Part shown: in pieces, positions 3,401-62,688 of the stretch
Layout of the letters: the number at the start of each line of letters is the position of its first letter
Position numbering within the stretch: position 1 is the stretch's first letter
Source of the DNA: Mytilus galloprovincialis
Lineage: Eukaryota; Mollusca; Bivalvia; Mytilida; Mytilidae
Direction of reading: 5' to 3'
Length of the DNA: 64,000 nt
Assembly: GCF_965363235.1 (NCBI RefSeq)
Contig: NC_134840.1
Coordinates: 58,646,793-58,710,792, forward strand
The notes under the pieces: model-generated
What the model was told of the DNA's origin: nothing
The model's input: only the letters and a program-made list of their open reading frames with translations
Databases searched by the model: none
Position numbers and translations under genes: made by a program

Positions 3401-4269
3401 AAGGCAACAGTAGTATAGGCTGTTCAAGCAATGTACTAGTAGACAACTAAAGACTGAGCAACACGAATCCCATCAAAAACCGGGGATGATCTCAGATGAT
3501 CCTTAAAGGTAAGCAGATACTGATCCACAGGTGACAACCGTCATGTTGCTCATATAAGTACAAATCCGGTTTCAAGTCTAATTAGGTAGGTCACATTCAG
3601 GGAAAAGAGAACAGGACTGATCTTTTTATTACCGAACGTGACTTATTCCCGAAAGTGACTGTTTTGCTAAGTGTGAATTCGTATTGCTTCAAGACGTGGC
3701 ACACTTATTTATCCCAAATTAATGTGTTGGGTTTTGATGTTCTGTTTGTTGTTGTCATCGGATTTTTTCAAATGTTTTAACGTTTGTAGTTGTAAATCGG
3801 ATTTTTTTTTCTGTAGTATTATTGTGTTGTATTGGGGGATAACTACTCATCCAGTTCATTTGGTAGATTTAATTTTGGCTCAACGAAATTTACACTATAT
3901 ATTTGGTTTGCAGTTTGATCAAAGAAACAACCACAAAGCTAGATAATACAATTAATTATCTAATTACTACGTCAATTAAATATCAATTAGTATTATGATT
4001 TTTTATAATTTTCACTGTTATTGATATAAGTTAGATGAGTCATACAAATCTAATCTTGAATTTCATCCAAATTCTCTTAATTTTCGGAACACGTTTTAGA
4101 AATTTATATGTGACGTCCCTTTGGGCGTTGCATTGACTCTGGCTATCAGGGCTGTGATTTTGTAATGTATTCGTTTTTTTATTCTATAGCAAGTCACCAC
4201 TTCAGTTTAATCATGTATATATATTACATAGTCATTTGATAAAATTTACTGTTTGCAAAACTATGTATT
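431..4269. other. gene-free AT-rich stretch with repeat scraps
   Basis: No open frame here resembles a known protein, and the small frames of 60-94 codons lack domains. The stretch holds a decayed retrozyme-like fragment at 845-930 and a short piece of dispersed family B near 3400-3425. The rest is AT-rich sequence in which I see no structure. Confidence 0.5.
845..930 (+). repeat. decayed retrozyme-like fragment with hammerhead remnant
   Basis: The piece matches the conserved core of the element at 5684-6139: a stem I half at 861-866, a core changed from CTGATGA to CTGGTGA, a stem II region, GACGAAAC, and the trailer TTAATCCTGGTA. The core change and a poor stem III suggest it is no longer an active ribozyme. 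Confidence 0.5.
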
Positions 4270-4460
4270 ATTCTTGATAATAATGATGTTTTTGTCACAG
4301 GCAGATAACCCTGGCCTCACAACTTTTTGGAACTTTTGGTCCTCGGCAATCTTCAACTTGGTAGTTGTTATGGCTTTCAAACTTTTTACATCTGAGCATA
4401 GTTTTGTTTGGACGTAGCGCACGTCTGGGTATCAACATATTTTTAACCCGTTACCTTTTG
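4270..4460 (+). repeat. strongly decayed retrozyme-like fragment
   Basis: The phrases ACAACTTTTTGGAA, CAATCTTCAACTT and CGCACGTCTGG occur in the same order as in the 355-bp unit at 5707-6061. The hammerhead core itself is not recognisable. Confidence 0.4.
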
Positions 4461-4529
4461 ATGGCTATTGTTCGTTTGTTTCTCTGTCCTATATATTCTC
4501 CCATTTATCTGTTTATTTATTGTAACCCT

Positions 4530-5007: not shown

Positions 5008-5683
5008 TAGGAAATGCAAGCCCTGCAATATCGTATCACCTTGAGATATATATTCCATTAGCAAGCTCTGTTGGAATGTTGCTGCATAGAAATTGAAAGT
5101 TCATATTTGGGAAGCTAAAATCATCTCCTTTTTCGTGAAAGTTTTGTTTCCAATTGACCCTCATTGTCAATTTCTAGATGCAAGTCAAGATATGAGGCTG
5201 TTTAATTATTCGATGAGAAAACATCATCATTACAGTTGAATGTGAACTAAACAGACTTTTAAAATTCCTACTTCTCGGCAGTGTGGCTCACATACAGTAG
5301 GATACTAGTACTCACTTACATAACTTAGATATCTAAAAGAAATACCAAGGAAGTCTAAAGCAAGGCACAACGAATACACATATATAGATAAATACACTTT
5401 ATTTAGTATACAATAGTTCGCTATCTATTTAAACACGTCTAAAAATGAAGTAATTATATGTTTTGAAAAGAAACACGTATCCTTTAAGACTCATATAATG
5501 ATCGTCATATAGGCTATTCAATTTTCTGTTTCTTTTCTGTAATATCAAAAAATTCTTATGGTAATTTTGTGTTATATTATTTACATGAGTACCCTGCACA
5601 AAATCGTACTTGTATGAGTTTTCCCTCATTTTTTTTTAAAGATTTCCAAACACACACATTTTTTTATTTCTTTTTCAGCTTTA
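5008..5683. other. gene-free stretch
   Basis: AT-rich sequence with no credible coding region. I see no repeat structure apart from short T-rich runs near 5630-5680. Confidence 0.4.
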
Positions 5684-5706
5684 GCTTTTTAACTATTTTG
5701 ATCTGA

Positions 5707-5750
5707 GCGTCACTGATGAGTCTTATGTAGACGAAACGTGCGTCTGGCGT
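5707..5750 (+). ncRNA. type I hammerhead ribozyme, copy 1
   Basis: Stem I is GCGTCA (5707-5712) pairing with TGGCGT (5745-5750), six pairs including G-U wobbles. The core CTGATGA is at 5713-5719. Stem II is GTC/GAC closing a 7-nt loop (5720-5732), followed by GAA at 5733-5735. Stem III, ACGTGCGT (5736-5743), is only 3 bp as a monomer but self-pairs over all 8 positions between two molecules (with two wobbles), as expected for ribozymes that act as dimers. Predicted cleavage follows C5744. All canonical core bases are present. Activity is inferred. Confidence 0.75.
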
Positions 5751-6061
5751 ATAAAATTATAATCCTGGTACTTTTGATAACTATTTACACCACTGGGTCG
5801 ATGCCACTGCTGGTGGACGTTTCGTCCCCGAGGGTATCACCAGCCCAGTAGTCAGCACTTCGGTGTTGACATGAATATCAATTATATGGTCATTTTTATA
5901 AATTTTCTGTTTACAAAACTTTGAATTTTTCGAAAAACTAAGGATTTTCTTACCCCAGGAGTAGATTACCTTAGCCGTATTTGGCACAACTTTTTGGAAT
6001 TTTGGGTCCTCAATGCTCTTCAACTTTGTATTTGTTTGGCTTTTTAACTATTTTGATCTGA

Positions 6062-6105
6062 GCGTCACTGATGAGTCTTATGTAGACGAAACGTGCGTCT
6101 GGCGT
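6062..6105 (+). ncRNA. type I hammerhead ribozyme, copy 2
   Basis: Identical across all 44 bases to the motif at 5707-5750: stem I 6062-6067 with 6100-6105, core CTGATGA 6068-6074, stem II 6075-6087, GAA 6088-6090, stem III 6091-6098, predicted cleavage after C6099. Cleavage at both copies of one transcript would release a 355-nt monomer. Confidence 0.75.
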
Positions 6106-6139
6106 ATAAAATTATAATCCTGGTACTTTTGATAACTAT

Positions 6140-7674
6140 CAGCACTGTACCCGTCCGCTTTGAACAAAGTACAATGAAGTCCTTTATAATGATGATGGAT
6201 ATTTTATCTTTCAGATGATTCCAACTAAATAGATTTTTTCGTTTCCAAATCAATATTTTTATTGCTGGACGTTTTCACAATATATATCGTCAGATCTGTA
6301 TAACATTATGAAATGATTTTTCAATCAGATGAGTTTTAAATAATAAAACAAAACTCCTAACAATATTAAACAATGTATATAAAATATATGTTTGTGAAAT
6401 ATGCAGATATATGAACTGTGTAAGGTAATTCTGGGAACAGTATATCTAACGTCAGTATGTATGTTCCTGGGTAATTGTCAGTGCAAGCAGTTGTTTAAGA
6501 TTATTAACAAAAAATTCTTGTGTATAAAATCATGTTAGGTGAAATACCTATTTTTACAATTAATTTCGTATTCAAAAGAATATCCTCTTATTTTCCTAAT
6601 TCACACACTAAATTTTTGTCCTGTTCAATTTTATTATTGATTTTTTTTTGATTTTTCCATTTTTTTTAAATCCTTGATCTTTTACATCTGGTTTCATTTT
6701 TTTAGAATCTTTTCCCGATGCTAGGCATATATTAGGACATAACTTTTTTAATTAATGTTTTATGATGTTTTTCTTTGCCTTTTTTCATTCCTTAGTCTTG
6801 AACTTCTTGTTCTCTTTTTCGTTTTTTTTTAAATCTTCTCTCGCCGTTATGCAAGTATTGGCTATCACTTTCCTTCTGTGATTTATGTTAAATTTAAAAA
6901 CACGAACTATCCATTGCATCAACCATACATGTTATTTTATGGAAAATGGAATAACGCTTGATGTATTCTAATTGGATTTTTTTGGGGGGAATGCAGGATA
7001 TTTTTTTGTACATTTAGCATCTTGAAGATGAAAATGCATTTTTTTTTAATTCTTTGTACTTTCTCTGAAATTCTCGGCATAGACAATAATCCGTTCAACT
7101 GTTTTCACTCTGCCTTATAACTGTATATCAAAGTTGGACGCAAAGCTATCATTACTTATACAGCGGTGGCAACTGCAGCCAAATTAAAATGTAAACAAGA
7201 ACACTTTCGATGATGATCATTATAGGAAATACATGTCAATACACAAATTCACTAATAAAAGAACACCTATCTTTTTGTTCGCTAATGATACTAAAAAAAA
7301 CAACATTATCCGACAAGTGAAGCGAAACATAATTAAACTTTCTTAACACTTTTCAAAGTCGTTGGTTTATCAATGTTGTAAAATTAAACTTCTCTTAAAT
7401 ATTGAGAAAGGAAATGGGGAATGTGTCAAAGCGACAACAACCAGACAACAGCCGACAACAGCCGAAAATCTATAAACAAAAATAATAAAATTTTCGTTGG
7501 ATGAAAGGAATTTTCATATTTGATCAAGTAAACAATGGTCAATGACAAAATGTGTTTGCAATAACATTAAAAAAGATATACATTGACAATGCACATTTTC
7601 AATGTAAAAGTGAAACATTTCTTCACAATCATATGTACACATACACTACTGAAAATGACAATTTTCAACCATTT
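6140..7674. other. gene-free stretch downstream of the first ZAP-like gene
   Basis: Lies beyond the stop of the minus-strand gene ending at 7675, so part is probably its 3' UTR. A short dispersed repeat occurs at about 7399-7475 (GAAAGGAAATGGGGAATGTG, then repeated GACAACAGCC). A short piece of the same repeat occurs near 45559-45583. No other structure was seen. Confidence 0.4.
7399..7475 (+). repeat. short dispersed mussel repeat
   Basis: Contains ATTGAGAAAGGAAATGGGGA, which recurs near 45559, followed by CAACAGCCGACAACAGCCGA, a short direct repeat. This looks like the start of a common mussel interspersed repeat, truncated here. Confidence 0.45.
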
Positions 7675-7906: not shown

Positions 7907-10343
7907 CTGAAAAGGTGAAAAAAAAGTTGAAGCCCATAGACAATGAACATTCTTTAAAGAGCGCATCTTTAATGCACAACTACTTAATTAGGTAATAAAG
8001 GTTCATAACTGCTTAAACAAATGTTTGAAAAATGAATTCAAATCCGCAAAACCGATTTCGATTTGCATAGTTTAATTCGTTACATTGTGTAAATATAACA
8101 CACTTGACTATGGGGCAACTTCTAAGACCCTGGAAAGAAACCAAATGTACGACAAACAGACAACAGTCCATGATTATCACTATACATAAAAACTAGTTGT
8201 TTGGAATATTCATTCACGGTAAACCTAACTAGTAAATAGTTTTTTCTTGTTTTAAAGCATTGATACTGTATATGTAAGCGGAAGAACTAAGTTATAAAAA
8301 TATTGCCCAGGTTACAATACGAAAATAAGAAGACATGGTATGTTTACCAACTCTCCACTAGAGACCAAATGACGTAGAATTAACAAACTATATTGTGTAA
8401 CAGAATAACATACAAACTTATAAAAATCAGTAACTTATCAGATTGATACATATCACAAAAAAAAAGTTATACCGTCTAAAGCTTCTAAACAACACTTTTT
8501 ACAGATATTAAATAGAAATATCAATCAAGATGTCCCTAAATAACATTCAATAATATAATCAAAATATCTGTTTGACATACCTTTTCCCTTTAAGGTTGAC
8601 TGTTGTCGTCTTTGCAAGCAAGTATTTTCGGTGCTTATCTTCAAGATATTTGACGATATCTTCTGGTATGTCTTCATTTGAATTACCATCAGAAATAGAC
8701 CAGGAACAACTTTTATTTACATCTTGACTTGAAAAGGATCTCGCATCTGAAATTTTCGGCATTTTGACTGCTAAGTTGACAGTTTTTTCCTCGCCGAACA
8801 ACTTTCTTTTTCTCGTAATTTTTTCTTTAGATAGGTCATTGTAACTTTTTTTGACTTTATATGAAATTGACCAATTCTTTTTATTCTCTTTAAAATCATT
8901 TGAAGACCAACGTAATAAAGACATTATTCTTGTCTTGCCTTGGTTCCATTCTCTCGGATCCAGATTATACTTGATCAGTATTTCAAGCACAGGTCCTTCT
9001 AGTAAACTGTGGTTTTGACGACACAAACCACCAGCGTAACACTGTCCATCAACGTATTTGCTGCACAGATGCAAATATGGACATTTCCGCGGCGACTGTT
9101 GCATCCTACCACTGTCGCCACTCCTGCATCCATTAGTATTATAGTATCGACAGATAACAGGGACTGTTACTCTACATCTGTTAGCATCATGCTGAAGTAA
9201 TCGGCATATATTTTGTAACTTAACTCGATGAAGAAAATACTTACATTTTGCTTTTCTATTGTGCTCATTTTCAAAGTCATGAATAAATTTACAGTTAGTC
9301 ATTCCACAGGAGCTAAGAATATAAAATTTACAAATATGAAGAGCATCGCATCCTCCTTTGCATGAATTTGGAACATTTGCGTGAGCTTGGCATAATGTGG
9401 CCTCTGTTTTGGCACGAACGTTTCCAGTTTCCTCGGGTGATTCTCCCTCTTCTGCCTCTTCAACAGTTTCAGTAGCAAATTCAAAGACCTTTGGATAATG
9501 CTCTAAGAAAGTTTTCAAATCTCCATTGTCTTCATCTGTACTTTGCCCAATTTCAATCCAATGGTTTTGAAGCTCCTCAATTTCAATTTCTCCTCCATTT
9601 TCTAAAATGATATTAAGTAAAATAGAAACTTTATCTTCAACGGAATATTCTTCAATGGGTTCAGATGACACTGGTGATAATTCACACTCTAATTGATTAT
9701 CTCCGTATCTACCTGGTAACATCTGATGGCTCAAATATGAATCATAATTACCTTCTGTGTCCCAATTTTCCTCTTGACATCTTTCACTAAGAAAAGCATT
9801 AGAATTGCCCCTTTCAAAATTTGTTCCGGTTTTTGCTCTTTTAGTGTTCAAATGTTTATTAAAATAATGTGACGATCCCTCGGCATTTTGTCTACCCCTG
9901 TTTTCGAAGTCAGGAGAACGTGTATTCCTATATTCTCTCTGCTCTTGAAAATCTTCTTTTATTTCAAGCAAACTGTGTCTTGCATTCTGTTCATTTCTCC
10001 TCTTATGGCTATCTCGTTCTCTATTTTCGTCATAGGAAACATTTCTGCTGTAACCCCTGTCATTTCCATTATTAAACAGGGGGCTACGACGTCCAGTATT
10101 TTCCCTTCTATTACGATCAATAAGTCTTGGTTCCATTCCTAGCCGACCTCTGTTATAATGCATCGACGTGTTCCTGCGATCCGGCCGTGTTTGTCCAAAG
10201 TGTTCGAAATCATTATGAACACGAGAACGTCCTTCTTCTTTTAATTCGAAATCTCTTGTATCATCATGGAAATTGTGAGGCTTATTATATTTACCGTTTT
10301 TTCCATTGAATTTCATTGATCTTCTGTGTGTTTGGTGGTTCAT
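7675..10343 (-). CDS. ZAP/PARP12-like CCCH zinc-finger protein with WWE-like domain, no PARP domain (gene A)
   Basis: Two coding exons, 10343-8581 and 7906-7675, join at a phase-2 intron to give about 664 residues. Residues 1-225 are disordered and rich in Arg, Asn and Asp. Residues 234-292 form a winged-helix-like segment (LLNIILENGGEIEIEELQ, YPKVFEF). Residues about 318-445 hold the ZAP-type CCCH block: CDALHICKFYILSSC, a CX7C finger from VICRYY, and a CX7CX5CX3H finger LCSKYVDGQC...CRQNH. A WWE-like domain begins near 546 and crosses the splice. Vertebrate ZAP and PARP12 have the same N-terminal order and restrict viral RNA (established). Here the PARP domain is absent. The start is the first in-frame ATG after an upstream stop, though an upstream coding exon cannot be excluded. 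A paralogue lies at 20177-23354. Antiviral function is inference. Confidence 0.82.
7907..8580 (-). other. intron of gene A
   Basis: A 674-bp GT-AG intron: donor GTATGT at 8580, acceptor TTTTCAG at 7907-7910 after a pyrimidine-rich tract. It contains two short pieces of dispersed family A, near 8130-8200 and 8330-8400 (CTCCACTAGAGACCAAATGA). Confidence 0.75.
8581..10343 (-). CDS. gene A coding exon 1 (disordered region, winged helix, CCCH fingers, first half of WWE)
   Basis: Ends in AAAAG|GTATGT, a good splice donor, with 2 bases of the next codon. Reading on through the donor gives only RYVKQIF and a stop, which shows the open frame was running into an intron. The frame also extends upstream of the ATG to a TTG codon at 10367, preceded by a stop. 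Confidence 0.82.
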
Positions 10344-13300
10344 GATTGATCCGAAACTTTTTTCCAATTTCCTCTACCTTCAATATTTTTTCCCCAATAT
10401 CCTATGAATGTCTCAATGTAGACCTTCTTATGACCTTTGCAGCAATTTCTTGTGTAGCTTAAATATTCCAACAAAATTAATATGATAAATTGTCATTTCT
10501 TATACATCATTCGAAAGAAACTTTATATTTAAAGTAGATAGGGGTCTTAGACTAACTTAAAATCCATAGTATTTTTTAATAATTTATCAAGATGTAGTTT
10601 ATATCATGCTTTTTCCCCAAAAAATTATTATAAAAGTATCGGTCACGGGCTTTTTTCGTGATACGGGTTGTTCAAAATTATCATATTTTGTATAGATTAT
10701 GAATGGACAATCTGTGATAAAAATAAAACTTCACAATAAAATTTTTAAAATAAAAGATAGCTCTAATAATATGCATTCAGATAAGAAAAAATGGGGTCAC
10801 CGGACTCGTTTTCTAGCGATACAATAAAATAGGTAAATTCAACATATTCTATTATAAAACTTGCTTTATTTGAGTTATCTTCCTTATATCTGAATTACTT
10901 CCTCTAATATGGCAAAGTTGAAAAAAAGTTAATCAAACACAAAAGTCACCTTTTTTGTTAAATACAACGGTTACCGTAAATATGATAAATCACAAACTTT
11001 GCTACATTAATACAAAAAGTTTAACACATGAATTACTAACTGCTCTCGACACTTACACATTTTTTAAAGTTCTAGACCAACTATTATCTGCTTTTTCAAA
11101 ATCAAAGATTTTTTTTTATCATTATGGAGGAAGACACCATATAGACACTTAAAAGAGGTTTAAAAACGTTCACCATCTTAAATCGCACAAACAGCACATG
11201 ATCGGTCAAGACTATTAATGAATTTGACAAATTTTGATTTACCGATATTAAATTTGTTAGACTATTTATGTAAACGAAGAAATTAAGTGATTCTATTTCA
11301 TGATAACACTTGTTTTTTTTCACAAATAGGGCCTACAGTTTTTATGAATTTCTAGAAAATGTTTAGAATTGAAATATAAGGGAGAGAAACTCAGATAATT
11401 CATTTTCATTAAGGATTGTATAGCTAATTGATTTACTTTGCTATTAAACAACTCAAATGATGATGAACCTATCTTACTTTTTAATTTCTTTAAAAAAAAC
11501 TTGTAAAAGCATTCTCATCTTTTTAAAATAATGTCATTTAGTTTTCTTTCTAAATACATCATAATGAATTTTCCTTGTTTAATCCTAATAAAACGTGTTA
11601 TTCATTCACGACCTTATACAATTCAGTAAATAGCACGATATAGACAACAAGTTTGTCAAGTTTTAACTTAATCAGGTTTTCCTCAGCAAACTCATGATAG
11701 TGGACAAATAATCTGAAAAATGGACTGCGGAACATAAATCTGCATCTACATGCACTCTCAAATCCATAGTCATTTTAGGACTTGATTGGGACATATTCAT
11801 TTTGAAATTTGAGAACTTACAGCAAAATGCCTGGAGTGTGTAAGTAAAGTTAATATATGTTTGGTTAGCTTGCTTCGAAAGAAAACATTCAGAAAGTATT
11901 CAAGGGAATGGCTTTCATTTACTTAAGTTTCCAAAATTTTGGAGCGACCGAATCCGGAGAGCTAGGAATCAATTTGGAGTGGCCTGCAGGACGCTGATTG
12001 TATCATACGTTAGATCCAAGCAAAAGCTTTGTATATATTTATCAAACCAGAGTATTGCCAGATCGTCCAATGTAAGTTAACTGTTGGATCGTGAAGGTGG
12101 TGGTTAATAAAGCACAAAGTTCATACGATCGGGAATTTAAAATATAAAAAGCATTTTAAGGCTGAAATAAATTACTTTTTGTTGCTTTTCCATAGATAAC
12201 TGTGTCGAACATACAAAACCTGATACCAGGATTTTTGGAAATAACTTTATATTCTAGTCTGGCAAGAACAGAATGAAAATATCTATTTTAACCAAAATAC
12301 GAACAAATTAATGTTTACAAAAGTGAAAATAAATGTTCGCGGGCATAAACATAATTGAGATTCGCAAGGCTGAAAATGATTATTCCGTCAGAAAAAAAGC
12401 CCCCTGAATCCCTCTTCTTACCAAGAATATCAAATGATCGCCGCCTGAGATCTAGGAATTCAACGGCGTACTACTCTATCATGTAGCCGACAATGATAAA
12501 ATATAAATGAACTTACTTTCCAATAGATTTTACATTGAAATAACTATCTGCTTATCCAAATTAACTAGATTTTCCCTCTAACTACTATATTCACAATATT
12601 TCCTTGTCGCTCTTTAGAAATGAACTTGGATCAAATTTCACAATCCGAATACATATTACGTCATTTGTTTAAATGGAAATGTGTTTCCCCAAAGTCATAC
12701 AAACCTACTTTCACTTTCAATACTGTAGTTATTTTTTTTCTTCCAAAATAACAATTGTGTTGTCCGAGAAACAGATCGTCTATTCTTTTGGTGTTCTAAA
12801 AAAAGTCACATAAAAGAGCTATTGTCGTGAACAATAATTACACATTGATGCAGAGAATCTACCTAATGCCTGAAGAAAACATCAAAAATAATTTTATTAA
12901 AATAGTCTGACTGACGGTGATGTTTTAAGTTAAGTTAAATCGACCTTTCATACACTCCTAGATAAAAAAAATAATCAGAACGCTAACATGTCCAAGACAT
13001 CATCTGTATAAGGAATGTAACCAATAACGTAAAAATGCATATCATAATACCGCAAATGGTTTAAATTCCTATTTCAGAAAAAAAGATGTTCATCGGATAG
13101 CAAACATTTGAAATACATACACCAATTTTTTAGAATAAAATTTACATTTTCCTTTATCTAATCCATTTGTAAAAAATATGTAAAATACAGCTATTGATTT
13201 CTGAAAATGATAACACAGAAATTTTCTGGTTTGAAGATCTGAACGTTTGTTAGTGGATATACTTGATATGTATGTATATAATTACTTGGGTGCGTACCAA

Positions 13301-14390
13301 GCCCATTTAAAGTCCAAATACTTGAAAAACAGAAAAACAAATTTTCTAAAAATCTGATCGTTCGATATCTTTACCTATATATAGTATTCATTTATCTGGA
13401 TTATTACTTGCTTGTTGATAGGGTATATATACATCGATAGTAATTAGTGCCAAAAAATGAATAGAAATTTTCAATGTTTGGCACGCTTTCAATATATAAG
13501 GAAGCTATTAATATCAATTATACGAGGCAACATTTTGGTAAAAAGTTAAAACAACACTATAATGTAGAGCGATAATATAACAAATGATAATCATTGTTCT
13601 CTGATGTGAAAAGGAGGAGAGCTGTACCTTATAATAGTTGAGCATAAAACTAATCTTAAATGCGTTTATGCAAACTAATTCATAAACAAATCAGTTTTTC
13701 TATTGGCTGTTACAGTTAGGGAGCAATTATTCAACTTCGAAAGGGGGTGGGGGGATTTTTTTTGTCCGAACAAGGATTTGTATAGTAATATACAAATCCT
13801 TGGTCCGAGTAATTTTTTATTTTTTCAACGCTTTCAATCAAAATAATATTTTTTTAAATATTTATGGGGGTAGCCTGGATTAAGAATGTTTTTTTTTGTC
13901 ATCTGCATCCTTTAATTAAAATATTCCATTGCAAGAACAATAAACAACAAGTGTCATAACTTTTATATATATATATATAAAAAGAATATATAATACTTAC
14001 ACTGTAAAACAGAACATATAATTACAAATAAAGCATCTTTTAAAACTAAATATATTATTTCATTTGTTTTCCAGCTGGAAATAACAGGAATACTGCACAT
14101 CCGCCCTTTTTTGATGATATTTTGCAGTGGAGGGATTCAAATCACTTTGGGAGATTTAAATTAAAAAAAAACACAATCTGGGGAACCATAAAAAGCTACA
14201 TACTTAAAAACGGTCAATTTGCTATTCATTTAATTTTTTTTTATAGTAAAACGTTTTGAAATTTCAGTTTATACTTATTCGCATCGATCATGGTAATATA
14301 CCTCGTGAGATAACCAAAACTGAATAACCAAGGCTTTTTCCTCAATAATTATATATCAATACATGTAAATAAACTCATCATAGTAAAGTA
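10344..14390. other. gene-free stretch upstream of gene A
   Basis: Presumably holds the promoter and 5' UTR of gene A near its left end, but no TATA box or other element could be identified with confidence. Open frames of 60-70 codons show no similarity. A low-complexity AT stretch (TATATATATATA) lies near 13965-13980. Confidence 0.4.
13717..13900 (+). repeat. partial MITE-like repeat with perfect short hairpin
   Basis: Starts TTAGGGAGCAATTATTCAAC, related to the terminus GGGAGCTACCATTTGA of the element at 24057-24338 and to a scrap at 25648-25680. Inside, CAAGGATTTGTATA and TATACAAATCCTTG (13771-13802) form a near-perfect 14-bp hairpin. Confidence 0.45.
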
Positions 14391-14570
14391 ACCAGGATTA
14401 AATTTTGTATTTACGCCAGACGCGCGTTACGTCTTCAAAAGACTTATCAGTATACCGCTCAAATCCAAAGAAAGTTAAAAAGGCCAAATAAAGTACAAAG
14501 GTGAAGAGCATAGAGGACCAAAACTCCCAAATATTTTGCCACATACAACTGAGGTTTCAATAAGTGATAT
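14391..14570 (-). repeat. decayed retrozyme-like fragment, minus strand
   Basis: The reverse complement reads CTGATAAGTCTTTTGAAGAC, then ACGCGCGTCTGGCGTAAAT and TTAATCCTGGTTAC, the hammerhead-bearing core of the element at 5684. It has core changes (CTGATAA, GTAA) that should abolish cleavage. Confidence 0.55.
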
Positions 14571-15699: not shown

Positions 15700-16580
15700 T
15701 CGAATATTCTGCTACAACCGAAAGTTTTTGACCGCATTTGGCACAACTTTTTGGAATTTTGGATCCTCAATGCTCTTCAATTTTATACTTGTTTGGCTTT
15801 ATAAATATTTTGATATGAGCGTCACTGATTATTCTTATGTAGACTAAACTCGCGTCTGGCGTACTAAATTATAATCCTGGTACCTTTGATAACTATTTTA
15901 ACCACTGGGTCTATGCCACTGCTGGTGGACGTTTCGTTCCCGAGGGTATCACCAGCTCAGTAGCAAACACTTCGGTGTTGACATGAATATCAATATCAAT
16001 GCTCTTCAACTTTGTATTTGTTTGGCTTTATAAATATTTTGATATGAACGTCACTGATGAGCTTTATGTAGACGAAACTCGCGTCTTGCGTACTAAACAA
16101 GTGAAACTGAGCTTCTGCTCACTGATGATACCCCCGTCCAAATGTGTTCGGTAAACAGGAAGTTGTCGAGTGATGAATCTGAAAACGCATCACACGGTAT
16201 AGCTGACTTATATCAAGTCTGAAACCAAATATCAGAAATCCTGGTAGTGCAGTTCCTGAGAAAAATGCGACGAAAAAATTTCGACTTGGCTATCAGGTGT
16301 AAAAATGATACAAGTGTTCGGTAAACAGGAAGTTGTCGAGTGATGAATCTGAAAACGCATCACACAGTATAGCTGACTTATATCAAGCCTGAAACCAAAT
16401 TTCAGAAATCCTGGTAGTGTAGTTCCTGAGAAAAATGTGACGAAAAATATTCATGGGACGGACGGACTGACTGACAGACTGACGGAAGGACAGACAGAGG
16501 TAAAACAGTATACCCCCCTTTTTTTCAAAGCGGGGGGTATAATTATAATCCTGGTACCTTCGATAAGTATTTTGACAAGT
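15700..16580 (+). repeat. retrozyme-like element, decayed and interrupted
   Basis: Two hammerhead remnants, 15819-15868 (core CTGATTA, TAAAC in place of GAAAC) and 16048-16091 (core CTGATGA intact, stem II weakened), lie 229 bp apart, so the unit has lost sequence relative to the 355-bp unit. The trailer TTATAATCCTGGTAC of the second copy is displaced to 16543 by an insertion at 16098-16542. Confidence 0.6.
16098..16542 (+). mobile_element. pearl/Helentron-like non-autonomous element inserted in a retrozyme copy
   Basis: Left end has GATGATACCCCCGTCC. The core is a 170-bp direct repeat (16144 and about 16314, both starting GTGTTCGGTAAACAGG). A GACGGACGGACTGACTGACA tetranucleotide tract follows near 16456-16495, and the right end is a C-run/G-run hairpin, TACCCCCC...GGGGGGTATA. 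Left end, tandem core, ACGG/ACTG tract and right end is the plan of bivalve pearl elements (Helentron-related). It splits the retrozyme between CTAAA and TTATAATCC. Confidence 0.6.
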
Positions 16581-19500
16581 TCCTAATCGACCCTAGACGA
16601 TGTTGGTGAGATTCTGAGTTTTCTCTACAATAATCCATATATTAAGCTCTGTTAAATATCAGTTGTAACCTTTCAACATGTTTTGAAGTTTTGTTAGTAA
16701 ATATTTGACTGCTGGTAGCTCTCCTAGATTATAGCAATGGAGAAGACAGTTTTAATCAGTCTTCTTGTTTTTAGCCTTATGTTGTAATTGTAGAGATGAT
16801 TTTAATGGATTGCACCAAAGTTTTTTCTGAACCTTCTAGTTTTATAAATATCGCCTAGTCTTAGTTTTCCACGTGTTCAAGTTTGGAAGTGCGCACACAA
16901 TACGTACCAATATTTATGGAGTTTCCATTTACAATGTTTACAAACAAAAAGAAAACTACAGGGCTCTAATATTCTCAAGGCGAGCCCTAAATTTTCTAAT
17001 AAATTATGCGTGTGCACGATCTTATTTATAAGCCTCTCTTGTTTCAAATTAGGTACCAGACTTTTTCCTGGAAAGTCGTACCTAGAGTAGGGAATAACAT
17101 GTGGCTCACACCTGAAATGGTATCAGCTATTCATATTTCATGTGAAGGTCAAGGTTTTTGAAAAGGGGAAGAAAACACGCCAATGGTCGAGGAGATACTT
17201 GTAAAATATTTTTATATAAAATTGTACTTCATCAGCTATGATTGCTATGTGCTTTGTCTGTATGCCTTTCTGTGATTCTTTGTTAACAGTATTGATTGTT
17301 TTTATAGTGATTAAGATTGTGACTATAACACAATGTGAACTGCTGTATCCATATTTTTTTAATTAATTTTTTTTACCTATTATGTCTGCTTGTTATGTTC
17401 ACACATCGTTGTCAATAAAATGGAATTTAAAGCTACTGATATACAAGTGAGAGGTTTAGCTAGCTATAAAACCAGGTTTAATCCATCAATTTCTAAATAA
17501 GAAAAATGCCTGTACCAAGTCAGGAATATAACATTGTTATCCATTCCGATTCGTTTGATGTGTTTTGAGCTTTTTATTTTGTCTTTTGATTACGGACTTG
17601 TCGTTTTTAATTTTCCTCGGAGTTCGGTATTTTACTTTTTCCTTCAAACAAAGTTGGCCTTATTAGATCGTAGTTTAGGCTTTTACAAGCTTTGGTTTCT
17701 ACCTAACCTGATGAATGCATTCCATAAAGTTGTCAAGTTCATTGCAATGATGTCAATACGTTAATCATGATGCTTGCGAATACACCATAGAGGGCACCTG
17801 TTGCGGGATATTCAAGATACGTTCAGGTTTGTCTCCAGCTGACTCAATAGTTATTCATGCAACATGTTTTTGTCATTTTAAAATAACCACTGAATCAGTA
17901 CAGTTCACTGTGCATAATGATATAGCAGCCCAGTAATCATGGCCTTAAACACTTGTTTCACATAAATAGTACGTTTATAAAGAATATTACTTGACAGAAA
18001 AGGATGTATCTCCCGCAGCTAGTATGACCTTCGAAACATAAAACTATTCTTTCTGTTCCATTTGTTTGATCTTTTGATTTGGTCATTGTTAAATGACTTT
18101 CCATTTTGAATTTTTCCTTGGAGTTCGATATTTTTTTGTTATTTTACTTCAAACATGCCATGAGCAATGCTGATGTTGGTATTTATTATTTTAGGGAGAT
18201 ATTTTTGATTGTGAACAATGAAAGTAGTATTATTCTTATATATTGAAATACATGTCATTAGCATATCATGTAACCATGATAACCCTCCTATAATATTCGT
18301 TGAAGACTTTCAGTCAGTATTAAAGCAGTTTAAAAGATGAGGTTTTTTTTGGAATGACATACATACATAAAACACAAAGTGTGATCAACATTTTAATATG
18401 AATATAAGAGTAATAGTTATACTAGATTAACATAAACATCTGTTCAACAGAGGATTGATCAATAATGGTGGATTTCAAGTTGTTAAAAATTACACAAAAA
18501 AAAAATGACTTTTAACATTCAAATATAGTAAAATCTCAGGAAATAGAAAATTGGTAAATGACCTTAAATGTCAACTTGTTCTTTTTGATAAAAGTGTCAA
18601 ACTGGTATAAAAATAGTTTCTTACAAAAAAAAATGTTTAACAAATTTCTGTGCATCAGTAGTTAAGAAGACACAATCAGACATTTTATATCCAATGTAAC
18701 ATATTTCTATCTCCCTCTCCTATATTATTTCCTTTTGTTTTACATAGCGTTTTAAATTTCGAACACATCAGTTTTTCATTCAATATAATACTTTTAAGAC
18801 TTCTTCTTGTCCTCAGTTCCAATTTTACCATATTCAATGCATTTGCTTTCCATGTCTTTTTCACCAAATCATTATTTTACACTTGATGCATCATTCCTTT
18901 TTTTCAATTTCAACATCATGAACATATATCACTTTAAAAAATCTAACACCTGCCTTGCAGACACATTTAATTGTAATTGTTCAAGAATCTTGTTTCACTC
19001 CTTCATTTTGTTTTCTATCTTTGTATACATTTGATTGTGCTTTGAATCCTCCATGACATACATTTTTCTGTATGCTAGTCTACATAATGTTGTATCAAGT
19101 TATTATTTTTATTTTCAGAAATTTATTTACAAATAATGTACATAAATACACAAGTATATAATATGTATACTTTGTAAAATTGAGAAACTGTTACTAAATA
19201 TCAGCGATTGGATTTTTCTAATATTACAGTAAATTTTCTTTCACCTTCCTCCTCTCAGTTTACAAATGTTCACTGATCATTTTTCCACAGAATAGGCAGC
19301 TTTTTCACACTTGTTATAGTGTTTATCTCCAGTGTTAGAGCCCTTTATATTTTCGATCAAAGGAAGGCACTGAAGAGCATTTATTTTTGAAATCACATGG
19401 ACATCACAATTTTTACTATTATATGATATTGTACTGAACAGTTCAATGAAAAATGCCGTTTTCTCCAATGAATTTATGTTCATTGCACACATTTTTTTAG

Positions 19501-20276: not shown

Positions 20277-23200
20277 CTGAAACATAATAAAAATGGTTAT
20301 CAGTAAAACTTTCAACAACAACAAAGTGTCTATCATGCTCATACACTATTGCTATGTATGTCAAGCTCTTAACCAAGTGTTTATCATTTCTTTACCTGAG
20401 TTTAGATACATTTAAAATAGACAACCAAAGGAAGATACCACCAATACTCTTCAATAGAGGACTAATTAAAGACGCTGATGGGGGATATTTTGTCATTCAC
20501 ATATTTTGCAATCTGATAATTGAAATGCCAATCAAATTTACATCTAATATTCTTAAACCAGAATTTAGGTTTAATATTTTTATTTTGGAATGTATCCTGT
20601 ATTGCTTATTGTACCTTTTCTTGAAGTTGATGATTTCTTGCTAATGTTGAAACATTTTAGTGACCTGTCTTTTATGAATCGTTTGATTAATTGTAGTTTG
20701 CTTTGTGTCCTGTCGTGCCTGTGGCAAATTACACCATAGGAAAATTTCTTGCTTCTCTTTATATAGTAAATAAATATAATCTTATAAGGAAGAGAGTTGA
20801 GCAATATTGAATTGCACTGACCAGTCACAAGGATGAACTATAGCCAAAAAAATCATACTATGTACTGCACAAAAGATTGCTAAATCAGTACATGTAAAAA
20901 GATTGCTGATATGTAGCTTATTACTACTTTCATTACTCCCCCCCCCCTGAAACATATTTTATACAAAATGACTTACTATTTTCCATCAACTAGCACTGTT
21001 GCTGTTTTTGCTGCCAGAAAGTTTTGATATCTAGTTTCCAAATCTTGGATGGTATTCTGTGAAATTTCTGTCCATTTATTGTTGTCAGCAATAGACCAGC
21101 ATGGAATCTGATTAGTTGCATTATCATCATTATCTGGTACCTGATTGGTTGTAGTCTCACCCTTTAATGATACCTGATTGGTCGTGGCCTCATTCTTTCT
21201 TTGTACCTTATTGGTTGTTATCTCATTATTTAAAACTGCAGAAGATTTTGAATTTTTCTTAGGATAAGATTGTTTTCCTGCAGGAGTAGCACCATCCTTT
21301 TCTAATTTCAATGCTGTATCCTCTATCAAATCTTTTGCTGCCATACACACATTTCTCTTCTCATCTATACTTGTTTCCTGTGAGTTGGTCTCACTTGATA
21401 TTGAACTCAGGCTTGTATCCATTACTTTCTGAATTTTGACTGAAATAACATCATCACCACCAACTTGTACCTTTCTTTTCAGCCTTTCTTTCGTATGGTC
21501 AGGTTTTTCATCATCCATCCCCAATTGATTTGACGAGCACTTTCTTCCAGTCTTTACAAGTTCATCTTTAAAATCATTTAATGACCATTTCAATAATGCT
21601 AAAACTCTGGTCAATCCATCAACTAAAACTCTTGGATCTAAACCATATTTGCAAAGGATTTCATACACATTTCCCTGTAGTAAACTATGATTTCGACGAC
21701 ATGAGGACCATATATTACAGCGACCTTCAACAAAACTGCGACAAATATGAAGGAATGGACATTTTTGCTGCTGTTGTTGATTTCCTACTTTCTCTTTAGT
21801 CCTACACCCTTTTAAACTGTTGTAGAAATGACATATGATAGGGACAGTCACCCTGCATCTGTTTGCATCATGTTGGAGTAAAAGACACAAGTTTGGTAAT
21901 TCTACTCTATGAAGGTAAAACTTTTGTTGTACCTCTATATTGTGATCATCACTCAAGTTGTGGCCAAATTTACATTTCATCATGTCACAAGAACTCAGAA
22001 CATAGAATTTACAAATATGAAGTGCATCACAGTCACCCTGGCAAGATTTTGGATGATTTGAATGAGCCTGGCACAGTTTCACATCTGATTTTGCACGAAC
22101 TAATTCAGTTCCCTCAGTGCTCAATCCACCCTCTTCATTATTTGCAATTTCCATATCAAATTCAAACACTTTTGGGTATTTCTGTAAAAAAGGTTTCAAA
22201 ACTTTATCATCTTTAAATCGATGCTTGACAGTACTTACAAATTCTTTTTCTAAACCTGCTACTGTATATTCTCCACCGTTTTTTAGCAGTAAATTCAGTA
22301 AATCGGATATTAAATCTTCAACTGCCTCTTTTCCTAACAACTCTGGTTTAATTACAGGCAAATTTTTCAGTTCTTCCGCAAAATCTGGATCTTTAACTGA
22401 CTCTTCTTCTTTACTTTCAGAGTCAACATCTGTAGGTTTATTTTTCAAGAATTCTATAGCCATTTTGATACCAGATTCATTTGTTGGCCAATCATAACTA
22501 CTTTGGTTTGATTGAGAGCTTACAACACTTTCTTCTAAAGGTTTATAAGTATCAGTTCTCTCATTTTTATCTTCAGATTTTTTATTCCAGTTTCTCTCTT
22601 TGTATCTTTCTTGTTTTGGATTACTGAAATGGAGGTTCTCATATCCTGCTCTTTTAAAATTCCTTCTTCTATCTCTAGCATCATGAACTCTTGCCTCATT
22701 ATAAAACTGACGTTCATTGTCAAGTGTTTCTCGGTTATGATAATCATGTAAATCCCTTCGATCATAATCATTGCGATGCTGAAATTCAAAGTTATCTCCC
22801 ATATCATAACTCCTGGCATCATATGGGTCTCTTAAATCTTTATTATAACTTCTATTTTCATAAGTATCATTGTCTTGGCTATAACTGCCTCTATTACCTT
22901 CAGCAAAGTTAATGTCTCTGTCTCTACGTTCATTTATATTGTCTCTCTCATAAAACCGATCATATTCTTTGTCAGCAAATTCAGCATTATCTCTACTGTA
23001 ACGATCCCTATCTAAATATTCAAATGTATCACTAGCATGCCTTTCCCTACCTACAAAACTATAATCATCTCTATCATAACATTGCTCCAGACTTCCTGTA
23101 TTTTTCTCAAAATTCCTGTGACAATAGCTACTTGTTTCATCTGACGTTTCATATGGTTTTGATCGTTGGGAATTTCTAAAATGACTTTTATCAAATATTT

Positions 23201-23354
23201 CTTGTGTATCCTTAAACCCTACATGTATATCATCAGTATTCCATCCTGGCCTATCTCTCTGAGATTCTCTAGTCTTTGCCCTGCCACGTCCTCTGAAACT
23301 GTTGCCGCCAAACTTACTACGAGCACGCCCTCTGCCTCTCTGGTAGGGTCTCAT
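20177..23354 (-). CDS. ZAP/PARP12-like CCCH zinc-finger protein with WWE-like domain, no PARP domain (gene B)
   Basis: Exons 23354-20977 and 20276-20177 join in phase 2 (TA+C gives Tyr) to make 825 residues. Residues 1-30 are RG-rich (RGRGRARSKFGG), and 100-260 are an Arg/Asp/Tyr-rich disordered region. A winged-helix-like segment is at 342-400 (LLNLLLKNGGEYTVAGLE, YPKVFEF). ZAP-type CCCH fingers are at about 428-556 (CDALHICKFYVLSSC, ICRSFVEGRC...CRRNH), and four degenerate TTNQV-type repeats at about 712-749. A WWE-like domain runs from CWSIADNNKW (752) to VKLKR at the end. The start ATG has a good context (ACCATGA) just after a likely 5' UTR splice acceptor. It shares fold order and intron phase with gene A and differs in the tail. 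The family senses viral or foreign RNA in vertebrates; the role here is inferred. Confidence 0.85.
20277..20976 (-). other. intron of gene B
   Basis: A 700-bp GT-AG intron with donor GTAAGT at 20976 and acceptor TTTCAG at 20277-20282. A poly(C) run lies at 20937-20947. It sits at the same codon phase and the same domain position as the 674-bp intron of gene A. Confidence 0.78.
20977..23354 (-). CDS. gene B coding exon 1
   Basis: Open for 792 codons. Ends GGAAAATA|GTAAGT, a strong donor in phase 2; reading through gives an immediate stop. Antisense open frames inside it are shadows of this exon. Confidence 0.86.
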
Positions 23355-23377
23355 GGTTACTTGACTTGTCTTTTAAT

Positions 23378-39904: not shown

Positions 39905-50907
<11,003 letters not shown>

Positions 50908-55071: not shown

Positions 55072-55590
55072 ACGGGTTTTCTTATCAGGATTTTCTTAAC
55101 CCAGGCATAGATTACCTTAGCTGTATTTGGCACAACTTTTTGGAATTTTAGGTACTAAATACTCTCCAACTTTGTATTTGTTTGGCTCTATAATATAACT
55201 ATTTTGATCTGAGCGTCATTGGTGAGTCTTATGTAGACGAAACGCGCGTCTGGCGTATCAAATTATAAGCCTGGTACCTTTGATAACTATTAAGTACAAC
55301 ACTGGGTCGATGCCACTGCTGGTGGACGTTTCGTCCCCGAGGGTATCACCGGCCCAGTAGTCCGCACTTCGGTGTTGACATGAATATCAATGATATGGTC
55401 ATTTATAAATATCCTGTTTACTAAATTTTGAAATTTTCGAAATACTTAGGATTATCTTATCCTAGGCATAGATTACCTAACCCTTATTTGGCACAACTTT
55501 TTGGAATTTAGGGTTCTCAATGCTCTTCAACTTTGTATTTGTTTGGCTGGTACCTATTTACACCACTGGGTCGATGCCACTGCTGACGTT
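55072..55590 (+). repeat. retrozyme-like element, more than one unit, decayed
   Basis: TTTGGCACAACTTTTTGGAA occurs at about 55126 and 55487, 361 bp apart, and TTGTATTTGTTTGGCT follows both. One hammerhead copy remains (55213-55256). The second unit jumps from TTTGGCT to GGTACC, losing its ribozyme, and ends near 55590. Confidence 0.62.
55213..55256 (+). ncRNA. hammerhead ribozyme remnant with changed core
   Basis: Stem I (GCGTCA with TGGCGT), stem II (GTC/GAC), GAA and the fully self-complementary stem III ACGCGCGT are intact. The core reads TTGGTGA instead of CTGATGA, which should strongly impair cleavage. Confidence 0.55.
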
Positions 55591-62164: not shown

Positions 62165-62500
62165 ACTTTTTTCTGTAATCTACTTTATTTGCTAAGGGAG
62201 TTGATAGACGCACATTTTGTTTACAAAAGACTGATAAGTGGCACTCGAATCAACAATTTTAAAAAGTCCAAATAAAGTACGAAGTTAAAGAGCATTGAGT
62301 ACCAAAAATTCCTGAAAGTTTTGCCAAATACAGCTATGGTAATGTAATGCTGAGGTAGAAAAAGCCTTAATATTTAAAAAAAAGAAGTTTGGAATCAAGT
62401 AATTTATAATTATGACCATATCAATAGAAATTCATGTCTTGGCTACTGGGCTGATGATACCCTCTTGGGAAAAAACTCCACCAGCAGTAGTATCGACCAC
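62165..62500 (-). repeat. strongly decayed retrozyme-like fragment, minus strand
   Basis: The reverse complement has TTTGGCAAAACTTTCAGGAA, ACTCAATGCTCTTTAACTTC and GTGCGTCTATC in retrozyme order, and a TGGTGGAG...GGGTATCATCAGCCCAGTAG phrase from the unit interior. The ribozyme core is lost. Confidence 0.5.
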
Positions 62501-62688
62501 GTGGTTGCAACGCTTATAATCAAAACTTCACCTTAAATTTCCATGTTTTGAAAGAAATGTTAAGTGTATCTTTTGTTCATAGTCATTTAGTGTAAGTAAA
62601 ATATGACCTATAGATATCTATATCTCGAAAAAGGGTGCTCTATATCATCAGCGGATAAAATGCATATCATTCATAGTTTTGTTAAAAA

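Follow-up and report, generated by a model that had tools for sequence, protein, structure and literature searches.

A tandem repeat with two hammerhead ribozymes in a 64-kb window of the Mytilus galloprovincialis genome (the window being the whole stretch of 64,000 nucleotides that was analysed) is very probably a copy of a metazoan retrozyme of the kind without long terminal repeats (non-LTR). Most of the sampled copies of its family share a 3' end about 40 nt past the ribozyme cleavage site and show a graded loss from the 5' side, an observation added here to a kind of element already described in mussels. The window copy by itself is ordinary, and the common 3' end is the part of the finding worth following. 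From this anatomy, which is observed directly in the genome, we infer that the retrozyme is copied by a reverse transcriptase from a fixed internal site on circular RNA, and to this best explanation, taken as a whole, we give a probability of about 0.55.

The two type I hammerheads of the window copy are identical, lie on the forward strand and have starts 355 bp apart (Table 1). Each gives 30.3 bits against the Rfam model RF00163, with an E-value of 1.9e-5 for 651 bases or 0.0019 for 64 kb, and in the cmscan alignment model positions 1–45 of 45 are aligned with no pair marked as broken in either motif. The original prediction, made from the letters alone, had described two complete hammerheads with an intact conserved core at these places and spacing, had expected a covariance model to match them with correct pairing and had named the sites of cleavage; all of this agrees with the model alignment and with the predicted cleavage sites, although the score is under the gathering score of 34 bits and the Rfam scan of the 64-kb window at the gathering score therefore gave no hammerhead match. 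With RF00163 at an E-value of 0.05, only these two hammerheads are matched in the window. The pair is not due to chance, since the core pattern CTGATGAGTCN7GACGAAACGNGCGTC has 17,279 exact matches in the genome (8485 forward and 8794 reverse; 1.385 Gb in 331 contigs searched) and the reversed pattern, used as a control, has none. The sequence also supports the earlier view of a retrozyme-like repeat with a layout that could release a 355-nt RNA. Stem III is ACGUGCGU in the window copy and is there self-complementary only if two G-U pairs are allowed, and ACGCGCGU, a perfect palindrome, in the majority sequence of the sampled copies, so that the claimed self-complementarity holds fully for the majority sequence and only with these G-U pairs for the window copy. 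The proposal that cleavage takes place in dimers is not supported; the abstract of PMC7229834 ties the dimer requirement to vertebrate retrozymes, and a cloned mussel repeat is there reported to cleave. Pairs 1–6 of stem I are formed in 79–85 of 86 copies, almost without compensating changes, and give little evidence of covariation; the copies were mostly picked by the exact hammerhead pattern, which leaves stem I free and makes the conservation of stems II and III uninformative.

Apart from the complete hammerhead core, metazoan retrozymes are recognized by a short tandem unit (about 170–400 nt) present as dimers to multimers, a GC content below 45% with no protein-coding region, and many dispersed copies. 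The unit found here is 355 bp, present as 1.3 units in the window, has a GC content of 0.386, and on the circle its longest stop-free stretch is 50 amino acids on the plus and 88 on the minus strand; the dispersed copies are those counted by the core pattern. M. galloprovincialis has been reported to carry some 5000 type I hammerheads, which form two similar families and lie in repeats of 350–390 bp (Cervera and de la Peña 2020, PMC7229834). In that study a cloned mussel repeat cleaves in vitro with a kobs of about 0.1 per min, slower than that of coral, circular RNA is abundant in several tissues with the circle as the main form, and the RNA circle is proposed as the template, with Penelope-like elements as a strong candidate mobiliser. 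Unit length, the presence of two subfamilies and copy number fit the present family, which, judged by these features, most likely belongs to the published one. The genome fits as well, the sites listed for the family all being on contigs C1–C14 and mussels of this genus having 14 chromosome pairs. What the original prediction took for an anonymous repeat belongs in fact to a highly abundant family of elements whose kind has been described before. A full-text literature search with five pieces of the repeat of 18–20 letters gave no match. Plant LTR retrozymes likewise have hammerheads flanking a unit that is released as circular RNA, but differ in having type III hammerheads, LTRs of about 350 bp, a tRNA primer site, a polypurine tract and 4-bp target duplications (PMC7761336, PMC7229834).

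Two subfamilies can be told apart by their end motifs, A ending with ...GATAACTAT and B with ...GATGAGTTTA. The identity to the window copy has a median of 90.4% over the 71 loci with a match, and the closest sampled relatives are 97.7–98.5% identical over 129–197 nt, a high identity from which the subfamily seems rather young. Within the window the family has additional blocks, on the plus strand at 860–928, 4192–4469, 15732–16097, 16538–16572 and 55087–55585, and on the minus strand at 14385–14555 and 62206–62505.

The ends of the copies were determined in 81 loci, of which 61 were taken by the hammerhead pattern in the first 9 Mb of contig C1, 8 are the best covariance-model matches, 8 are stretches with GIY-YIG elements and 4 are small. 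Four loci that overlap others (L010, L011, L015 and L020, overlapping L009, L014 and L019) were excluded from the coverage, stem, block-end, hairpin-pair and tight duplication counts, L031 and L032 also from the hairpin-pair and tight duplication counts, L078–L079 from the block-end count and L078–L081 from the tight duplication test. Blocks near the end of a locus were left out (within 15 nt for block ends, 30–40 nt for the tight and 40 nt for the loose duplication test), and so were repeated identical ends or segments in the block-end, junction, stem, hairpin and duplication counts. The 3' end falls at unit phase 85–110, about 40 nt past the cleavage site, in 76 of 98 distinct blocks, and the 5' ends are scattered. 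In this hammerhead-anchored sample the coverage of the unit at phases 91, 101 and 111 drops from 129 to 109 and 58, and across the remaining unit it rises slowly. A fixed 3' end with variable 5' truncation is the pattern of target-primed insertion, in the style of long interspersed nuclear elements (LINEs) and Penelope. The lengths of the copies range from 0.1 to more than 4 units and pass one unit without a step. Among the blocks with the common end, 65 of 76 are at least 105 nt long with a mean excess of 293 nt, and 25 blocks extend beyond 355 nt and 10 beyond 705 nt, where one fitted exponential gives 27.7 and 8.4. The 5' ends do not cluster at the cleavage site, with 3 of 65 lying within 6 nt of it and 2.4 expected if they were uniform. 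Nested tail patterns, lengthened in 9-nt steps and counted genome-wide with at most 3 mismatches (controls 0), gave 29,597, 21,001, 17,295 and 14,992 matches, that is a retention of 0.71, 0.82 and 0.87; the retention of 0.82 belongs to the step across the cleavage site and does not fall below that of the preceding step, and as the counts mix truncation, mutation and subfamily differences they argue only against a large loss there. Fixed 3' ends of animal retrozymes are not described in the main-text sections covered of PMC7229834 and PMC7761336, nor in titles and abstract openings of the related literature; for the Mytilus retrozymes of PMC7229834, neither the common 3' end nor the graded 5' loss is described in those sections.

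At the junctions there is an excess of T. Of 51 family-A ends (...AACTA), 41 are followed by T at +1 and 39 by T at +2 (background 0.34), and of 25 family-B ends (...GAGTTTA) 22 and 19 (background 0.37), when 28 family-A and 8 family-B ends at which the unit continues are left out. The bases past the end motif agree above background with the continuing unit, UUUACACC. The excess may come from a nicked target annealing to the template that runs on, from a ragged start, or from a target preference such as ATT. Past the end point the unit has an AC-rich stretch followed by two predicted hairpins, and the predicted fold of the segment 5784–5870 has a z of -3.71 against shuffles. Of 51 copies, between 40 and 51 retain any given hairpin pair, with two-sided changes in two inner pairs of the first hairpin and in two pairs of the second (e.g. 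C-G to G-U, G-C to A-U and A-U to G-C), but several of these look like subfamily differences and should therefore represent few independent events.

According to the explanation that we prefer, transcripts of the repeat would self-cleave at both hammerheads to give the 355-nt RNA, as is published for a mussel repeat and seems probable for this one, and a host ligase would close it to a circle, as in the published model. A reverse transcriptase from another element would then start about 40 nt past the joined cleavage site, just upstream of the conserved hairpin, primed at the target DNA, and would run round the circle until it falls off, which would leave copies that share their 3' end, differ in their 5' ends and are 0.1 to more than 4 units long. 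The 3' end of a self-cleaved RNA would lie 40 nt upstream of the one observed, and lengths above one unit could not come from a linear template of one unit; an internal start on a circle or multimer fits both observations. The likeliest supplier of the enzyme is a Penelope-like element, and mobilisation of retrozymes by Penelope was already proposed in PMC7229834; the fixed start site is the new part.

A similar layout has been described for Poseidon, a Penelope-like element of Anolis (PMC11167929), which has a type I hammerhead followed, tens of nucleotides on, by a fixed internal start near an AC-rich stem loop, and also partial tandem copies with a common genomic end. With the purified protein, reverse transcription starts inside the RNA, most commonly 111–118 bp into the open reading frame (ORF) at the AC-rich stem loop, and the hammerhead cut is at 26 bp into the ORF; the interval between the two starts of the element accounts for an optional tail of 30–40 bp. 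By arithmetic from these figures the main start lies 85–92 nt past the cut and the second, if it is upstream, roughly 45–62 nt, where the retrozyme has 40. Penelope-like elements encode a reverse transcriptase and a GIY-YIG endonuclease, whereas the 355-nt unit has no long open frame. The likeness is a suggestive parallel in layout, short of a demonstrated homology; the word "retrozyme" does not occur in the text of PMC11167929. It is a tentative proposal, to which we give somewhat less than an even chance, that a Penelope-like enzyme recognises the RNA downstream of the hammerhead and inserts retrozyme circles by starting at a fixed position within them, about 40 nt beyond the closed cleavage site. 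If this is true, the retrozyme would be a stripped-down Penelope template for which the hammerhead makes an endless track, the genomic copies would record the start and the run length of the enzyme (the mean of 293 nt beyond the first 105 in 65 blocks), and reverse-transcription starts should be expected at ...GAUAACUAU. The repeats of animal retrozymes are stated to have no conserved motif that would reveal their mobiliser (2020 review, PMC7761336); a fixed internal end beside a conserved hairpin is a concrete template site to test, and allows a comparison with the Penelope enzyme for which in vitro assays appeared in 2024.

Several observations weigh against copying from a fixed site on a circle. 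The copies sampled are few, were mostly selected by their hammerhead and come largely from the first 9 Mb of a single contig, and 22 of the 98 blocks end elsewhere. The exponential is off just below one unit, where the deviation is largest, with 27 blocks beyond 305 nt and 32.8 fitted. Folded alone, the 52-nt ribozyme segment has a minimum-energy structure that is not a hammerhead (z 0.38 against shuffles), and in the predicted fold of the linear 355-nt RNA some parts of the hammerhead pair otherwise. The ATT target preference of the Anolis enzyme might explain the junction T equally well, and the start site of the Anolis element reportedly lacks homology with the cut DNA (PMC11167929), whereas the retrozyme ends have a few matching T. 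In the loose duplication test, based on those 77 of 99 blocks whose 3' phase is 85–110, there is no clear excess of duplications (at least 5 bp in 39 of 77 with 29.7 expected, at least 6 bp in 15 of 77 with 11.1 expected); the tight test, from which blocks without a recognised end motif were excluded, gave a slight excess in favour (at least 4 bp in 28 of 74 against 17.0, at least 5 bp in 11 of 74 against 5.0), and target-site duplications in this retrozyme family are weak. The 3' flanks of seven GIY-YIG elements in the same genome (L070–L073 and L075–L077) contain no hammerhead of their own, with Rfam run on four of them, nor, a separate insertion in L072 aside, any retrozyme tail.

The template could also be a long uncleaved transcript of tandem genomic copies of the same element, copied from an internal start with the ribozyme dispensable for insertion. 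This predicts the same anatomy, which does not separate a tandem array from a circle as template, and such arrays exist, 27 of 100 sites having a neighbour 320–400 bp away among the matches listed of the 17,279. Hammerhead mutants of the Anolis Penelope-like element, moreover, inserted normally in vitro (PMC11167929), indicating that the ribozyme need not take part in insertion, which counts for this explanation and against the circle. Circular RNA is, on the other hand, the main form in mussel tissue (PMC7229834) and the hammerhead core is exact at 17,279 places, and we hold copying of uncleaved transcripts to be unlikely, though it deserves serious attention. The fixed 3' end and 5' truncation also resemble LINEs and short interspersed nuclear elements (SINEs), and the 2020 review regards metazoan retrozymes as a possible novel SINE family (PMC7761336), so that the RNA might be linear with a real 3' end at ...GATAACUAU and the tandem arrays might have arisen later by unequal exchange. 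Self-cleavage would however set the RNA end about 40 nt upstream, the lengths run past one unit with no excess at full length, and in none of the 25 flanks inspected is the end point followed by an A-run, which makes linear retrotransposition improbable. Long near-perfect arrays, such as the 20 exact matches of the 58-base tail in 354-bp steps at C1:56126972–56133755 (G000), among the matches listed, would suit a repeat in which the hammerhead is a passive relic, either a satellite DNA multiplied through unequal exchange or DNA circles or a DNA element of the Helitron type; given thousands of scattered copies, and a shared 3' end and gradual 5' loss in the sampled ones, an origin of this type is very improbable.

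In the GIY-YIG loci a tail shared with the retrozyme was considered for the block at 1611–1778 of L072 and rejected, as it starts about 0.8 kb beyond the last stretch common to the relatives and is therefore a separate insertion. A dinucleotide run of at least 12 nt begins 0.5–0.8 kb into each of the seven 3' flanks. No hammerhead was found upstream of one GIY-YIG element (L078, L080 and L081), where the stretch ended in an inverted partial copy and is hence uninformative. In L081, L071, L073 and L074 the 5' side of the GIY-YIG (Penelope-like) element is joined to a partial, inverted duplicate of the element's 3' part, and dinucleotide runs lie past its open frame.

The coordinates of the window copy are collected in Table 1. 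It ends 40 nt past the second predicted cleavage site, and its position had been given correctly in the original prediction, with an extent slightly too small.

Table 1. Retrozyme copy in the 64-kb window and its parts.
Feature	Position	Strand	Basis or remark
Retrozyme copy, 460 bp (1.3 units of 355)	5680–6139	+	5'-truncated; 3' end at the common end of the family, ...GATAACTAT
Direct repeat, first arm, 105 nt	5680–5784	+	Contains the mismatched position, 5683
Direct repeat, second arm, 105 nt	6035–6139	+	One mismatch to the first arm, at 5683
Type I hammerhead ribozyme 1	5707–5750	+	RF00163, 30.3 bits; predicted cut after C5744
Type I hammerhead ribozyme 2	6062–6105	+	RF00163, 30.3 bits; predicted cut after C6099
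355-nt RNA between the two cuts	5745–6099	+	Putative release, from the predicted cleavage sites
Two predicted hairpins just downstream of the common end of the copies (UUUACACC follows the end)	5792–5870	+	Folding and pair conservation in 51 copies
CAGC, candidate 4-bp target-site duplication, left	5676–5679		Weak; TCAGC if the shared T is counted
CAGC, candidate target-site duplication, right	6140–6143		Weak

Some other candidates were rejected. A minus-strand hammerhead suspected by eye at about 5811–5845 has no hammerhead match on that strand up to an E-value of 10. RNA polymerase III A and B boxes fit the unit with 5 mismatches in all, which is equalled by 31.7% of 300 shuffles, and Rfam matches to SCARNA7, RAGATH-30, sraA, MIR161, ilvH, bxd_5 and CRISPR-DR31 fall short of their gathering scores and were not considered further.

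The genome also has a further hammerhead-like type, CTGAAGA..GAA-ATCCGGAT-C, with a palindromic stem III and 2198 sites at no more than 3 mismatches (control 0). Two copies lie 545 bp apart on the minus strand of L079, in which no Rfam match was obtained up to an E-value of 1, and these units of about 545 bp are longer than the published Mytilus retrozymes of 350–390 bp (PMC7229834). On the minus strand of L074 (about 3291–3240) the similarity to this type stops 92 nt past the predicted cleavage site. Elsewhere in the window, long open frames of 604 and 798 amino acids, on the minus strand at 8559–10373 and 20976–23372, have matches to a PARP12-like CCCH zinc finger (PF25261, E-values 3e-10 and 2.2e-13), and in the region 41789–44285 short repeats around AACGGACGCCTAACGGA are numerous in both orientations and may mark the ends of another mobile element.
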